Shown piece by piece: positions 27,505 through 34,025 of a DNA stretch of 42,266 nucleotides. Numbering within the stretch: position 1 is the first letter of the stretch; every line of letters begins with the position of its first letter. The notes beneath the pieces were generated by a model. It did no database searches and was not told where the DNA came from. It worked only from the letters and a program-made list of their open reading frames with translations. Position numbers and translations under genes: made by a program. Source of the stretch: Bacteroidota bacterium (GTDB lineage: Bacteria; Bacteroidota; Ignavibacteria; UBA10030; UBA8401); contig JAUXTU010000092.1 of NCBI GenBank assembly GCA_030679145.1, positions 1 through 42,266 of the forward strand, read 5' to 3'.

Positions 27505-27536
27505 AAGCCCATAGGTAATTCACTATGGGCTTTTTC
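27505..27536 (+). terminator. Rho-independent terminator after secG
   Basis: AAGCCCATAG at 27505-27514 pairs with CTATGGGCTT at 27523-27532 around an 8-base loop, followed by a run of T. The 3' arm lies at the beginning of the next open frame. Confidence 0.85.
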
Positions 27537-27539
27537 ATT

Positions 27540-28781
27540 ATGCTCAAACGATATCCGATAATAGTATCCGCATTCTTTTGTTATTCATTCTTTCTTTCGG
27601 CACAAACGAAACCTGAATGGACAAACACCCAAAAGAATACAATTAGTAGGGCGTTCTATTACGGCATTGGAACCTCTCAAGTTTCACCGGATGAAGCAGA
27701 TACAAGAGCGTTCATTGAATTTTCCCGTAACGTAGAATTGAAAGTTAAAAGCATCTTTCAACAGCAGGTAACTGAAGAGGGAAAAGACTTTTCTGAACGG
27801 ACAAATATTACAACTGAATTGATTTCCGATGTAAGCCTGAAGGGAATAGCAATCACTGAGCGTTTTGCTGACACAACATCAAAAGCATTTTTCAGTTTAA
27901 TTCAATACCGAAAGACAGAATATGACTCGATGGTGTTATTTCAGATTGAACGTGAAGTTGTGTTGATGAAAGTTCGAAATAAAATGATTGAAGAAAAACG
28001 ACAGGAAGAATTACGATCACAAAAAGTGAAGAATCAGCAGGAAGAAGATCGAAAAAAGGAAGAGCTTCGTGCTAAACAAGAAGAATTAACCATTGAACAA
28101 AAGCGTCAGCAGCAAAAAGATCAAGAGGCTGAGTTACACAAAAAAATGTATGGTGAATTTCTGAAAACCCCACCACCGGAAAAAGTTGTATCACTGCGAA
28201 ACGGGGAAATCTCTAACGGTGAAAACTCCTTGATGCTCAAAGCTGGTCTTGCACCATTACGGTTTAACGGTGGGTTCTATGCACGTCGTTTTTGGGTGTT
28301 TGAACTTGCGGGAAGTGCCACTTCTCGAAACGGTAAATTGAATCAAGAAGAAGGATTCTTCAAAATCCAGATTCTGCCCCGGGTGGGTGAATTCACTAAA
28401 ACATCACTTGCGATTGGGGCAGTACAGGCAGTTGGGCTGATTGCTGATAGCGGATATAGTTTTAAACGTTCAAAATATTCATTGTTTGTTGCCGGAAATA
28501 TATCAATCCCTGAATATGCTTATTCAACATTTTCGTTCTATGGTGACAAACGGAAAATATCTTTCGGTGTAACAACAAATCCATTCTATTCACAATTCAA
28601 ACATCATCTTGGATTTGTTTTGGAAGCGAATACTGTATTCGATAAGGATTTTAGAAACAGCAAAGGAAATACTTTCGTTATCAATGGCGGTATCAGGTTG
28701 CAAGCAAGTGAATCACTTTCAACTCAACTGGTATATGAAGATTATGAACAACTGAATCTTACTTTAGAATTTCAATTTTGA
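27540..28781 (+). CDS. Secreted LPP20-like, coiled-coil and beta-barrel protein
   Basis: This 413-residue protein starts at the ATG at 27540; an ATG at 27525 adds five residues and lies in the terminator. Residues 1-21 form a signal peptide ending SAQ. Residues 25-150 (PEWT......YYGIGTS....ADT.A..E) resemble LPP20-type lipoprotein domains, but there is no lipobox Cys. A strongly charged Gln/Glu/Lys coiled coil covers about 145-205. The C-terminal half (about 225-413) alternates aromatic strands and ends in LEFQF, like an outer-membrane beta barrel. The family is unknown. A periplasm-spanning outer-membrane anchor is plausible but inferred. Confidence 0.75.
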   Translation: MLKRYPIIVSAFFCYSFFLSAQTKPEWTNTQKNTISRAFYYGIGTSQVSPDEADTRAFIEFSRNVELKVKSIFQQQVTEEGKDFSERTNITTELISDVSLKGIAITERFADTTSKAFFSLIQYRKTEYDSMVLFQIEREVVLMKVRNKMIEEKRQEELRSQKVKNQQEEDRKKEELRAKQEELTIEQKRQQQKDQEAELHKKMYGEFLKTPPPEKVVSLRNGEISNGENSLMLKAGLAPLRFNGGFYARRFWVFELAGSATSRNGKLNQEEGFFKIQILPRVGEFTKTSLAIGAVQAVGLIADSGYSFKRSKYSLFVAGNISIPEYAYSTFSFYGDKRKISFGVTTNPFYSQFKHHLGFVLEANTVFDKDFRNSKGNTFVINGGIRLQASESLSTQLVYEDYEQLNLTLEFQF

Positions 28782-28957: not shown

Positions 28958-30655
28958 TTAATGTGAGATATAGAGATACCGTTTTATCTTTAGTGTAGGT
29001 GTCTTTTCAAAGGGCTCTTTTTGTTCGATAACTCGAGATATTTTAGAGAACCCTGAAACCTGTGTGTTAACGGAATGCTTTATATCGTCCAATAATTTTA
29101 AAATATGTTCGCGGGTCTTTGATTCGGTCTCTCCGGAATTCACAGCTTCTTGATCGAGCGATTCATAATCCAAAAATACACGGGCAACTAAAGAGTCACT
29201 TTCTTCATATACTAACGACTCCAAAACGTATTCCGCTTGATTAATGATTGATTCAATCGCTTCGGGGTATATATTCTCACCGCTTGGACCAAGAATAATA
29301 TTTTTCACTCGACCTCGAATTGCCAAATGATTTTTTTCGTCAAAGAAACCTAAATCGCCTGTTCGCAACCATCCATCGTTTGAAAGAACTTCAGCGGTAC
29401 GTTCCGGATCTTTGTAATACCCCTTCATTACGCTTGGTCCTCGGACAATGATCTCACCAATTTTTGTTTCGGAATTCGGATGGTCAATTTTTACATCTAA
29501 AGCCGGAATGACAAGTCCCGTTGAACGGAATCGCTGTATATGTGCAGGAGCACCAGATATTAATGGTGATGTTTCCGTCATTCCATATCCGATCGCATAA
29601 GGGAATTTAGCCTCGCGAAGAAATTGTTCGACTTCTGGAGCTAAAGCAGCACCACCGATTCCGAAAAACTTTAATGATCCGCCAAATGTCTCTTTCAGTT
29701 TTTTTCCGGCGAGTGAGTGTATTTTTTTTCTAAAATATGGTATTCCGGATAATATTCTCCCGATTAATTTTTTTCGTATTTGCGGCAGCACTTTTGTTTT
29801 ATATATTTTCTCAATGATCAATGGAACAACCAGCATAATTGTCGGACGGATCTTTAATAATGCGGGTAACAATACTGCCGCGGTTGGTGGTTTTCGTAGA
29901 TATGTTATTGAAGCTCCGCACATAATGGGCAAAACTAATCCTAAAGTGCATTCGTAAACGTGTGCAAGAGGAAGTATTGATAACAATCGATCACTCGGCA
30001 CCATTGGGGGAATATCATACGATGCTTGTGCATTCCATACAATGTTCTTATGTGTCAGTATTACGCCTTTAGAATGTCCTGTTGTTCCCGATGTGTAAAT
30101 AATTGCTGCAAGATCATCTTCTTTCGGTACTGTATGCTGGTATCCGGCAAGTTGAAGCGCAAGTGAACGAATTTTTCTCAATTCACGACTGCCATCGGAG
30201 ATCAACTGTTTTAGTGTTGTTCCATTTGTTTGATCTTCAATAAGAGATAATGTATCAAGAAGTATAAAAGCTAAGAAAGGAGAGCGGTCAATATCGTCAA
30301 GTTTTGCAGCAAGTCGTTCAGAAACAAAAAGTGCAGTGCATTCAGCATGGCGCAAAATATGATGAATCTCTGTTGTATGAAAGTCCGGAAGAATAGGGAC
30401 TGCAACACAACCCATTGTTGTTATCGCAAAGTAGGCAATTCCCCAATACGGTGAACTTTCGCCAATGATCGCTACACGATCACCCGGTGCCACACCGCGG
30501 TCACGTAATACATCAGAACAATGTTTTACTTGTTCACCAAATTCTTGATACGTAAAATGTGTTTCTCCAACATAGCCAAGAGCAGGTGTTTTTGAAAATT
30601 CCTGAATGGATCTATTATACAGCGAAGTAAGCGTTAACAGTGGAAGTGAAATCAC
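28958..30655 (-). CDS. AMP-forming long-chain fatty acid CoA ligase
   Basis: This protein of about 565 residues belongs to the ANL superfamily and activates fatty acids to acyl-CoA via acyl-AMP. The phosphate-binding loop IIYTSGTTGHSKGVILTHKN, the GYGMTETSP motif and the hinge GWLRTGDLGFFDEKN..IRGR.K..I are clear; the C-terminal lysine is probably in TLKIKR. A shortened middle gives it the look of the AAE13/FadD15-type bacterial group. The start is uncertain: a TTG at 30679 and a GTG at 30655 are both possible, and neither has a strong ribosome site. I use the GTG because homologues begin near LL.L...S...F..TPAL.Y. It may serve beta-oxidation or lipid recycling. Confidence 0.9.
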   Translation of the reverse strand: MISLPLLTLTSLYNRSIQEFSKTPALGYVGETHFTYQEFGEQVKHCSDVLRDRGVAPGDRVAIIGESSPYWGIAYFAITTMGCVAVPILPDFHTTEIHHILRHAECTALFVSERLAAKLDDIDRSPFLAFILLDTLSLIEDQTNGTTLKQLISDGSRELRKIRSLALQLAGYQHTVPKEDDLAAIIYTSGTTGHSKGVILTHKNIVWNAQASYDIPPMVPSDRLLSILPLAHVYECTLGLVLPIMCGASITYLRKPPTAAVLLPALLKIRPTIMLVVPLIIEKIYKTKVLPQIRKKLIGRILSGIPYFRKKIHSLAGKKLKETFGGSLKFFGIGGAALAPEVEQFLREAKFPYAIGYGMTETSPLISGAPAHIQRFRSTGLVIPALDVKIDHPNSETKIGEIIVRGPSVMKGYYKDPERTAEVLSNDGWLRTGDLGFFDEKNHLAIRGRVKNIILGPSGENIYPEAIESIINQAEYVLESLVYEESDSLVARVFLDYESLDQEAVNSGETESKTREHILKLLDDIKHSVNTQVSGFSKISRVIEQKEPFEKTPTLKIKRYLYISH

Positions 30656-30679
30656 AAAATTCTCGCGGCAATGAATCAA

Positions 30680-31048
30680 AATTGAAATTTACATATGTGA
30701 ATGATAATGAGAATTAGAAAAGGAGGCAAGCAATTGTAGAAAAACAAAAACCATTGCAGACATCTTTGTCAGTAATAGCTTTTAGAAGTAAAAAATTATA
30801 AAGGAATTGTTCATTTTTAGTTTTCGAGAGTATTGATTATACATTTATGAAGTTTGGAATTCATTTGAACATAAATTTGAGAGATTACGTCAAGTTTATT
30901 TCTATTCTAATTATTATCTGAGAAGATAACATCTTTCGAACATTTTAATCAATACTGACCGCATATATTTAATACTTATTTTATTTAATAAAATTTCTTT
31001 GTATAGTGATATGAAAAATCAATTATTTTGTAATAGACAAATAATTAT
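30680..31048. other. AT-rich intergenic region
   Basis: I see no coding region of convincing size here. The stretch at 30699-30712 (TGATAATGAGAAT) resembles part of a Fur-type box. TATAGT at 31002-31007 may be a -10 box for the gene at 31049, without a convincing -35 box. A 13-codon open frame at 31011-31052 ends in an ATGA overlap with that gene. Confidence 0.5.
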
Positions 31049-31052
31049 ATGA
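31011..31052 (+). CDS. Possible 13-residue upstream open reading frame
   Basis: An ATG at 31011 opens the frame MKNQLFCNRQIII and its TGA overlaps the ATG of the next gene (ATGA), an arrangement that would couple translation. There is no ribosome site and no attenuator hairpin, so it could be chance in AT-rich DNA. Confidence 0.25.
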   Translation: MKNQLFCNRQIII

Positions 31053-31924
31053 AAAAATTCTCTTATTCAGTTATTCTTCAGCAAAAAGGGGATCAACCAA
31101 AAACTGAGGGGGATACATTTGAAACCTATAGAAGTTTTGTTGACAACGGGATTCAAACCGCACTGACTGAATTAGACAAAGTAAGATCGGATACAATTCA
31201 AAAAAATGGAACAATCCTCCGGGGCGGTTTGGGTCATTTCCTTTCAACACCACTAAAATCAGACACAGATGAGATTATTCGCCTTATTCGTGATAATATT
31301 GAGAATACTGTTCAGCAATTAGATGCAGCGGCAATTCTCTCATCGGTTGAACACACACTGTGGAAAATCATTGAACCGCAAAATGTACCACTACATCGTC
31401 AATTAGTCGGAGTTGTTAAGCGATTGCTAAAAAACGGCCGGACAATTTTAGCTGATGCAGGCTGTCAATTTGGTAAGAATTCGGGAGAAACGATTTTTTC
31501 TAAATTTTCATTTAATGGGTTTGCAACGGCTCAATCATTAAAAACAATCATCGATCAATTTAGGAGTCAACAAACACTTGAAGTAATTAACGGGACATTA
31601 TCAAGCACCATTACCGCAATAGAAGAGGGTGAAAGCATTGAAAAATTTATCGTTCAAATAGATTTTGATGCTCCGAACGATTTGGTTATTTCACAATTGC
31701 TTGAAAGAATACCCGTGATGTTGGATCAATTTGGAATTAAGAATTTTATTGTTTCAAAACAATCGCTTCATGGCGGAGTTGGGGGCGAATATCAAATTCA
31801 ATTTAAGATGAATATCGATAAGTATCCTCTTGGAACAGTGATTATGTCGTTAGTAGGAGATAGTGAAGAGTTAGAAGAGGCAATTACAGTTCATGGTTCA
31901 TTAATAGTTTTAGAACAGATATAA
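31049..31924 (+). CDS. Conserved-looking protein of unknown family
   Basis: I do not recognise this 291-residue protein. It has no signal peptide or membrane segment. Residues 1-25 look like a beta hairpin (FSYSVILQQKG). About 30-150 are mostly helical, including GGLGHFLSTPL and a basic stretch VVKRLLKNGRTIL. A short GCQFGKNSGE loop near 139-148 may be functional. The last third is alpha/beta, with a strand-helix pattern (KFIVQIDFDAPNDLVISQLLERIPVML) and ends in TVHGSLIVLEQI. Codon use resembles the neighbours. Nth follows 29 bases downstream. The good length and regular secondary structure make it a real gene. Confidence 0.75.
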   Translation: MKKFSYSVILQQKGDQPKTEGDTFETYRSFVDNGIQTALTELDKVRSDTIQKNGTILRGGLGHFLSTPLKSDTDEIIRLIRDNIENTVQQLDAAAILSSVEHTLWKIIEPQNVPLHRQLVGVVKRLLKNGRTILADAGCQFGKNSGETIFSKFSFNGFATAQSLKTIIDQFRSQQTLEVINGTLSSTITAIEEGESIEKFIVQIDFDAPNDLVISQLLERIPVMLDQFGIKNFIVSKQSLHGGVGGEYQIQFKMNIDKYPLGTVIMSLVGDSEELEEAITVHGSLIVLEQI

Positions 31925-31953
31925 AAGAATTTATACACCAATTAATCTGATCA

Positions 31954-32601
31954 TTGAAAGAATCTGCCGAACAAAAGAAGAATAGAGCAACGGCTCTCTT
32001 CAAAATTCTCATAAAAGAATATCCTTCCGAGCAAACTGCACTACATTACGGAAATCCTTTTCAGCTACTTGTTGCTGTCATTTTATCGGCACAATGTACA
32101 GATGCGAGAGTTAATCTCGTAACACCACAGCTCTTTGCCCGATTCTCAACACCAAAAGATTTTGCTTCTGCTGATGTTAAAGAATTGGAAGATTTAATTC
32201 ACTCAACAGGATTCTACCATAATAAAGCAAAGAATATTATTGGCTGTTCAAAAGCATTAATAGAAAATCATAATTCAAAAGTTCCAGAAACGATGGAAGA
32301 GCTTTTTCTACTGCCAGGGGTTGGTAGAAAAACTGCAAATGTTGTTCTTGGTCAAGCATTCGGAAAGATTGAAGGCATTGTTGTTGATACGCATGTGATT
32401 AGACTTTCAAACCGATTAGGATTTACAAAAGAACTTGACGCAGTAAAGATCGAAAAAGATTTGATGCCGCTTATTCCTAAGAAACATTGGTATCATTTTT
32501 CGCATGCATTGATCTTCCACGGAAGAAAAATCTGCCCTGCAAGAAAACCTAAATGCGCTGAATGTAAAATTAGCTCGCATTGCCCTTCATCAACTGTATA
32601 G
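31954..32601 (+). CDS. nth: Endonuclease III (DNA glycosylase/AP lyase)
   Basis: This 215-residue base-excision repair enzyme removes oxidised pyrimidines. The helix-hairpin-helix LPGVGRKTA carries the catalytic K126, and D145 lies in VVDTHV. The C-terminal 4Fe-4S cluster uses C194, C201, C204 and C210 in the exact C-x6-C-x2-C-x5-C spacing. The start appears to be TTG at 31954, since no ATG occurs before the conserved core; no strong ribosome site is visible. The HD-domain gene follows after 9 bases. Confidence 0.95.
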   Translation: MKESAEQKKNRATALFKILIKEYPSEQTALHYGNPFQLLVAVILSAQCTDARVNLVTPQLFARFSTPKDFASADVKELEDLIHSTGFYHNKAKNIIGCSKALIENHNSKVPETMEELFLLPGVGRKTANVVLGQAFGKIEGIVVDTHVIRLSNRLGFTKELDAVKIEKDLMPLIPKKHWYHFSHALIFHGRKICPARKPKCAECKISSHCPSSTV

Positions 32602-32610
32602 GGAAAGAAT

Positions 32611-33162
32611 ATGAGTCGTAACGATGCTCTTGCATTAATGGTTGAGTGGACTCACAATGAGTCTTTGCGCAAACATATGTTATGTGTTGAAACGGTAATG
32701 CGTTCATATGCCCAAAAATTTGGACAAGACGAAGAACTGTGGGGAATAACCGGTTTACTTCATGATTTTGATTATGAAAAATATCCCAATCCACCGGATC
32801 ATCCATTGAAGGGCTCTGAAATATTGAAGAGTCTGGAATATCCGGAAGAAATGCTCATTGCAATTCTTGGTCATGCAAGTTATACCAACATTCCAAGAGA
32901 ATCACTCCTCGCAAAAACATTGTTTGCGTGTGATGAGTTGTGCGGATTTATTGTTGCTTGCTCTTTAGTGAAACCGGATAGAAAAGTCGCCTCACTTGAA
33001 GTCAGTTCAGTTAAAAAGAAATTAAAGGATAAAGGATTTGCAAGAAATGTCAGCCGAGATGATATCACTAACAGCGTAAGCGAATTAGATATTAATTTGG
33101 ATGAACATATTCAGTTTGTTATTGATTCATTAAAAACCAATGCCGCTAATTTGGGACTGTAA
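32611..33162 (+). CDS. HD-domain phosphohydrolase-like protein
   Basis: This 183-residue protein has the metal-site residues of the HD superfamily: H22, H51-D52 (GLLHDFDYEKYP), H88 (GHASYT) and D108 (ACDEL). The HDFDYE.YP.PPDHPLKG sequence is typical of a widespread but poorly known subgroup annotated only as HD hydrolase. A phosphomonoesterase or nucleotidase role is possible; the substrate is unknown. It is probably co-transcribed with nth. A GGGAAAGA purine stretch precedes the ATG. Confidence 0.85.
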   Translation: MSRNDALALMVEWTHNESLRKHMLCVETVMRSYAQKFGQDEELWGITGLLHDFDYEKYPNPPDHPLKGSEILKSLEYPEEMLIAILGHASYTNIPRESLLAKTLFACDELCGFIVACSLVKPDRKVASLEVSSVKKKLKDKGFARNVSRDDITNSVSELDINLDEHIQFVIDSLKTNAANLGL

Positions 33163-33239
33163 TAGTTGCAACTCTTTTCTTTGTTCTTCGTAAGAATTGT
33201 TATTCTATTTCTATTTTCCTTAAACTTTTGGAGACTATC

Positions 33240-34025
33240 ATGAAAAAATATACCTTTTGTATTATGGCAGTAATATTTTTTACACTTCCTTTGATTTCTC
33301 AAGAAAAAGATGAAGATGACGATAATTCCTCCCGATCATATTCATATTGGGACAGATCAAAAGTAGGCGGCGCTGGTGGTGTTACTCCAATTGTTGGAAT
33401 GTTTGATAACAAAGAAATGGATAAGATGTTAACTTCATCTGGGTTGCCTACCCTTGGTGCAGATCCAATCTATCTGATTGGTGGAGAAGGATATGGTTAC
33501 ATTATGTTTTTAAAAAATGTTCGTATGGGTGGCTTTGGTGCTTCCGGAAGTAAATCAGTCGTTAAAATCGAAACGATTCCAGGTGGAGAGTTGAGAAAAG
33601 AAGTCGAATATGGTATCTCATACGGAGGGTTTTTAGTTGACTACGTTCAGCCGATTGCATATCGCCTGGATATTGCATTCGGAGCTTCAATTGGCGGTGG
33701 TGAAATAGAACTCACAATGCGTCGTGACGATGGAAAATTTAAGGAATGGAACACTTTGTGGAATGATTTTGGAACTGTATCGTCTCAAGCAACGAGTTAT
33801 ACACGCAAACTAAACGGGACTTTCGTTGTATTCAATCCTCATGTAAATATTGAATATACTCTCATTACATGGCTTCAATTGCGTATCGGTGCCGGATATC
33901 CAATAATGATTTCACCTGAATGGACACTTGATGAAAAATATGACATCAACAATGTTCCTTCAAAGATTAGAGCAAGCGGATATACAATCAATGCAGGAAT
34001 TATGTTTGGATTTTTTGGTTGGTAA
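33240..34025 (+). CDS. Secreted outer-membrane-like protein of unknown function
   Basis: This 261-residue protein starts at the ATG at 33240 after TTGGAG; a TTG 12 bases upstream is less likely. A signal peptide covers about 1-20 (ending LISQ). An acidic stretch EKDEDDDNSS follows, then many Gly-rich and aromatic strands (GGEGYGYIMFLKNVRMGGFGASG, RIGAGYPIMI) ending in INAGIMFGFFGW. That pattern fits a small outer-membrane beta barrel with an aromatic C terminus. No family is recognised. It has its own gap of 77 bases upstream and ends at a convergent terminator. Confidence 0.75.
   Translation: MKKYTFCIMAVIFFTLPLISQEKDEDDDNSSRSYSYWDRSKVGGAGGVTPIVGMFDNKEMDKMLTSSGLPTLGADPIYLIGGEGYGYIMFLKNVRMGGFGASGSKSVVKIETIPGGELRKEVEYGISYGGFLVDYVQPIAYRLDIAFGASIGGGEIELTMRRDDGKFKEWNTLWNDFGTVSSQATSYTRKLNGTFVVFNPHVNIEYTLITWLQLRIGAGYPIMISPEWTLDEKYDINNVPSKIRASGYTINAGIMFGFFGW

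Follow-up and report, generated by a model that had tools for sequence, protein, structure and literature searches.

Outside the family described here, the dimeric alpha+beta barrel (DABB) fold is known from oxygenases, haem enzymes and ligand-binding domains, and the porphyrin-binding DABB enzymes (Cld, ChdC, DyP) carry an axial His ligand. The coproheme decarboxylase/chlorite dismutase/DyP superfamily corresponds to Pfam clan CL0032, and in porphyrin-binding DABB enzymes the porphyrin sits in the C-terminal half (excerpts of PMC7611857). Sulfur oxygenase reductase requires His86, His90 and Glu114, which form the iron site, and Cys31 (excerpts of PMC7398979). Solved barrels also include 2pgc, a marine metagenome protein, and CT0912 of Chlorobium tepidum (PDB 3gn6), whose title describes an ORFan with a ferredoxin-like domain repeat; among the literature matches listed, no title announced a study of the function of CT0912, 3gn6 or 2pgc, and neither CT0912 nor 3gn6 was mentioned in them. 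Chlorobium represents a sister lineage of the organism considered here. Endonuclease III (Nth) is a widely conserved iron-sulfur repair enzyme that is usually taken to act alone. The literature search found no paper pairing a dimeric alpha beta barrel with DNA repair and, among the matches listed for endonuclease III, Ignavibacteria, gene neighbourhood, PolX and PHP domain, no title on the gene analyzed below.

The gene lies directly upstream of nth in a 42,266-nucleotide stretch of an Ignavibacteria assembly (the window; Table 1). The ATG-started frame is a real protein-coding gene. The reverse complement of the same interval is full of stops, and the chance of 291 stop-free codons from one given starting point was about 5e-10 at the composition of the window. 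Substitutions relative to four relatives were concentrated at the third codon position (positions 1/2/3: 100/64/179, 99/68/173 and 128/94/225 over 291 codons each, and 127/91/173 over 290 codons), which is the signature of coding sequence. The peak 19-residue Kyte-Doolittle mean was 1.08, indicating that the product has no membrane-like segment, and the protein looks soluble. Promoter-like sites were not enriched in a scan of 30600-33300 (7, against a shuffle mean of 10.5). In the window an AMP-binding (acyl-CoA synthetase-like) gene at 28958-30679 on the minus strand stands between a gene at 27525-28781 and the target; it is missing at this position in the close relatives L031, L032 and L033.

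Table 1. Features of the target locus, in positions of the window.
Feature	Position	Strand	Basis
AT-rich intergenic stretch before the target	30680..31048	+	sequence composition
Target gene, encoding a 291-aa protein with a predicted duplicated DABB fold	31049..31924	+	ATG-started ORF
Extended helical hairpin, residues 22-92 (H22-65, H70-92), LxxFLSTPLxSD at the turn (61-72)	31112..31324	+	predicted secondary structure, invariant columns
Motif GCQFGKNSGE, residues 138-147	31460..31489	+	K or R at residue 143 throughout the 20 rows
nth, endonuclease III, 215 aa, TTG start 29 bases past the target stop	31954..32601	+	NCBIfam equivalog TIGR01083, 262 bits (cut-off 211.7)
HD-domain gene, 183 aa	32611..33162	+	Pfam HD 7.8e-08, above cut-off

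No sequence library assigned the target to a family. The best Pfam match (CdaS_N, E 0.046) fell under the cut-off, NCBIfam gave no match, and neither PHROGs (best E 0.073, phrog_10147) nor PADLOC gave a family above cut-off. A sequence search of the PDB reached E 0.65 at best (malate racemase) and a profile search E 0.26 (a Polyamine-modulated factor 1 chain). Pfam families at E 1 or better never occurred in more than two of the 20 aligned members, and no named DABB-clan family gave a profile match, at E up to 10 for the target or up to 1 for the 20 members. CdaS_N (present in 1/20 members), phrog_10147 and malate racemase were dropped as identities because the matches were short and weak, and a mobile-element or defence origin was dropped because viral contigs, phages, plasmids and PADLOC were all without a match or relative. 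Consistent with these results, the description in the first-pass annotation of an unassigned protein that fits no family held at the sequence level, where no library gave a match above its cut-off.

Relatives were detected in 32 of 100 related genomes by single-sequence search, the window's own genome counted, and 20 of these were aligned and used to build a profile (12 were left out, including a fragment from G002). The profile matched 40 of the 98 genomes of the window's order, in four families (f1, f2, f5 and f6), as well as 40 of 391 genomes sampled from the class and 8 of 296 from the phylum, every one of which belonged to the window's own order. One peptide pattern matched 40 stretches in a named-species collection, and at least 17 were confirmed as relatives, a lower bound since a single pattern cannot reach every member; all 17 are metagenome assemblies titled Ignavibacteriae, Ignavibacteriales or Bacteroidota/Bacteroidetes/Bacteroidia. 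The target thus represents an unnamed family of known fold (see below) that is, within these searches, confined to one order.

Identity to the window protein spanned 57% down to 14% in the alignment. Q11, L61, L65, T67, P68 and D72 were invariant in all 20 rows, residue 143 was K or R in every row, G138 was nearly invariant and E289 was mostly conserved. Both motifs that had been picked out by eye as conserved-looking contain such positions: GGLGHFLSTPL starts at residue 59 and contains L61, L65, T67 and P68, with D72 just past its end, and GCQFGKNSGE contains the K/R143 position. No column held His or Cys in as many as 8 of the 20 rows or Trp in more than 8, and the residues of the window protein were matched by His in at most 7/20 rows, although misalignment at such divergence could mask a His or Cys ligand. 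A nucleic-acid-binding surface was considered and dropped, as the net charge of the members ranged from -10 to +5 and the one helix of six checked that was positive in all 20 rows (118-138, +1 to +6) was suggestive at most.

The neighbourhood was compared in 41 loci from all 40 carrier genomes, several of them cut by contig ends. In 39 of the 40 genomes, which include all four target-holding families, nth is the next gene downstream and has the same orientation; in G095 the target is split over two contigs and nth follows the 3' piece. The sole carrier without an adjoining nth is G039, in which the 3.4 kb downstream of the target hold no nth and the gene is found on contig C29. LiaF-like and ferredoxin-like genes still precede the target in that genome (L128). 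Same-strand neighbours in the 41 loci were the HD gene (32, downstream of nth), the gene of the repair polymerase PolX (29, upstream), a LiaF-like membrane protein gene (16) and a ferredoxin-like gene (9); a dihydrouridine synthase (Dus) gene also occurs, as do anthranilate synthase genes in some loci. In the window's genome the locus has secG upstream. PolX, LiaF-like and Dus genes were assigned by Pfam on representatives and elsewhere by similarity to these, and the ferredoxin-like gene has sub-cut-off Pfam matches only (Suc_Fer-like, thioredoxin-like [2Fe-2S] ferredoxin). The order of nth followed by an HD-type hydrolase, as first read from the window, was confirmed by TIGR01083 and Pfam HD, and the proposed comparison with other genomes bore out a conserved neighbourhood. 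The adjacent Nth proteins contain VDTH (39/39) and GVGRKTA (38/39), motifs that we take to be of catalytic significance, and these enzymes look active.

A PolX-LiaF-nth block, with Dus in some loci, recurs across the order (L094-L117, L037-L050), and a ferredoxin-like gene directly precedes nth or the target in several loci of the order and of same-class genomes (L107, L158, L161; L097, L100, L102, L111; L034-L037, L125-L128, L136). In the window's clade PolX lies outside the locus (on contig C96 in the window's genome) and the link to nth is kept. A possible nth start was located at -4 (13 loci) or -1 (6 loci) relative to the target stop in 19 of 39 loci, a count that carries no chance baseline; two loci showed no start in the range listed. 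A nearly invariable link to nth, kept even where PolX is outside the locus, and the possible overlaps argue for co-expression, and the target would then be made together with endonuclease III from genes that often overlap or nearly touch. Bacterial PolX has AP-endonuclease and 3'-end-cleaning activities (excerpts of PMC6616362), and by virtue of these the gene ensemble looks like base excision repair; the Dus and LiaF-like genes mean that the block is not purely one of repair. In the portions available of a survey of PolX neighbours (PMC9226535) nth is not mentioned and endonuclease III is absent from the main text, and the main text of PMC12926913 likewise lacks endonuclease III; the available portions of neither paper name a protein of this kind.

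The reading favoured tentatively here is that the target is an accessory protein of endonuclease III or of base excision repair; gene order is what ties it to repair, and the adjacency to nth holds although identity falls to 14%. Against this reading, genes may keep their order without sharing a function, some members of the block (Dus, LiaF-like) have no tie to base excision repair, and nth lies on another contig in G039. In its favour, an nth above the curated cut-off was present in 40/40 carriers, compared with 40 of the 58 genomes of the order in which no homologue was detected (Fisher 2.7e-5, a value inflated by incomplete genomes and shared ancestry), and the Nth encoded beside the target looks active. 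From the 40 non-carriers with nth, 22 were chosen among the more complete genomes for analysis of the empty site. None of the ORFs listed in the 22 nth loci matched the profile, and in 19 of them (the exceptions being L112, L118 and L119) nth is immediately preceded, at a distance of up to about 250 bases and without an intervening target, by a PolX, LiaF-like or ferredoxin-like gene, indicating that the target is a removable insert in a conserved neighbourhood rich in repair genes. Its presence and absence require eight changes on an nth tree of 61 rows, which was built by a quick method and has many weakly supported branches (22 of the 58 inner ones open). These changes imply that Nth works without the target; probably, the target is either old in the order and has been lost repeatedly, or entered the order two or more times at one position. 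Outside the order, same-class genomes have the ferredoxin-like gene, nth and HD gene together without the target in 3 of 9 nth loci (L107, L158, L161), a further point against an accessory role.

Adaptation of Nth to a partner was considered and dropped, as no residue cleanly separates the 39 carriers from the 22 non-carriers (largest frequency difference 0.54); this lack of a target-linked residue also counts against the accessory reading. A second nth-like gene is present in the window's genome (G000:C59:27456-28007; 146.7 bits, below the family cut-off). Such paralogues are common in the order and occur in carriers and non-carriers, and the gene was dropped as a replacement for the target.

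The same observations would also fit a passenger gene, transmitted by vertical descent in a housekeeping block and serving some purpose other than repair. This explanation is supported by such neighbours as a dihydrouridine synthase, a LiaF-like membrane protein and sometimes anthranilate synthase genes, and by the absence of the target from many relatives with its neighbours undisturbed. However, the link to nth is tighter than that of any other counted neighbour and holds where PolX is outside the locus, and we regard a mere passenger as rather unlikely.

The fold was predicted by AlphaFold from 18 sequences (the window protein and the 17 relatives of the named-species scan). The monomer model of the window protein had a mean pLDDT of 85.5 and a pTM of 0.78, and that of a member 19% identical to it a pLDDT of 79.7 and a pTM of 0.78; since one sequence set underlies both monomer models, they are not independent. 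Both models contain two beta-alpha-beta-beta-alpha-beta units with inserts, namely an extended first helix that runs into a hairpin and an additional helix that lies between the second and third strands. Foldseek returned 79 and 49 PDB matches for the two models at E 0.001 or better, mostly DABB proteins among those listed, with modest TM-scores by query length (0.25-0.51 among the matches listed), and VIA Z scores reached 15.4 for the window model and 17.2 for the second model. No viral structure in BFVD matched at E 0.001. The target is accordingly predicted to be a single-chain, duplicated ferredoxin-like DABB whose first strand is followed by an inserted helical hairpin. The first-pass annotation, in which the protein was unrecognised but showed ordered structure, stands as to the missing sequence family, the soluble-looking product, the motifs and the nth neighbourhood, and is amended as to the fold, which is predicted to be a known one; its suggested role in DNA damage stays a proposal.

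The best match by Z was 2pgc (15.4, 192 aligned, rmsd 3.1; and 17.2, 201 aligned, rmsd 2.7); the putative monooxygenases 3mcs and 3f44 also matched (13.2 and 16.0; 13.6 and 15.2). Unlike the target, these three proteins have only 205-218 residues, at 7-11% identity, and judging from this length they probably lack the long hairpin. CT0912 resembles the target in length and in its duplicated fold (Z 13.4, 208 aligned, rmsd 3.8; and 14.7, 208 aligned, rmsd 3.9), but is only 8% and 6% identical and is absent from the PDB sequence-profile matches at E up to 10. A wider family reaching into green-sulfur relatives was considered and dropped: no ORF matched the profile in the nth loci of 14 genomes with the green-sulfur FMO protein, one of which spans only about 220 bases before nth, and the best profile E over the ORFs of these loci and of the same-class nth loci was 0.53. 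The genes before nth in the green-sulfur and same-class loci presumably correspond, by eye, to nusB or a phosphatase.

Most of the solved matches are oxygenase-like or haem proteins, and the target might accordingly be thought a free-standing, cofactor-free DABB enzyme of the antibiotic-biosynthesis-monooxygenase type, acting on small molecules such as oxidised bases or aldehydes and co-expressed with the repair genes. The matches 3mcs, 3f44, 3fez and 9kdp, whose titles point to putative monooxygenases or related proteins, would agree with this, as would the anthrone oxidase-like 5f9p, and the conserved polar positions Q11, K/R143 and, in most members, E289 could line a barrel. The family nevertheless has no sequence match to any DABB enzyme family and no widely common His, Cys or Trp column in 20 rows, and its strongest conservation is at the turn of the inserted hairpin and not, Q11 excepted, on the strands; such an enzyme is a possibility to which we give limited weight. 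A haem- or iron-dependent enzyme is very improbable, for despite the two-domain barrel shared with coproheme decarboxylases and chlorite dismutases (Z ~10-12) and the DyP group, and the single-chain, two-domain fold shared with the sulfur oxygenase reductases (2cb2 and others, 307-310 aa; Z ~14-16 over 206-222 residues, 7-9% identity), the target has no Pfam match to the former and no conserved His column, and, with the caveat on misalignment given above, no conserved column for the iron ligands and catalytic Cys on which the latter depend.

Taken with the gene order, these comparisons are consistent with an accessory protein of endonuclease III that is probably non-haem and perhaps non-enzymatic, and that would bind a protein or a ligand instead of acting as a haem or iron oxygenase. 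Such a partner may contact Nth physically, and the hairpin turn, as the most conserved part, could form the contact site. A more specific proposal, that a DABB protein was co-opted in this one lineage to serve endonuclease III as a dedicated subunit or regulator that docks through the LxxFLSTPLxSD hairpin and possibly senses or removes an oxidised-base product, is speculative and on balance doubtful.

The gene stands beside nth in 39/40 carriers and is missing in many relatives, so that repair can be compared between natural lineages that have a putative partner and those that lack it. It could also hint at the function of barrel proteins that are solved yet unexplained (2pgc, CT0912). If the target is merely a passenger, it still represents a conserved family without a name, for which a model in annotation libraries would be worthwhile; if it is indeed a dedicated subunit or regulator of Nth, it would give the DABB fold a role in repair.
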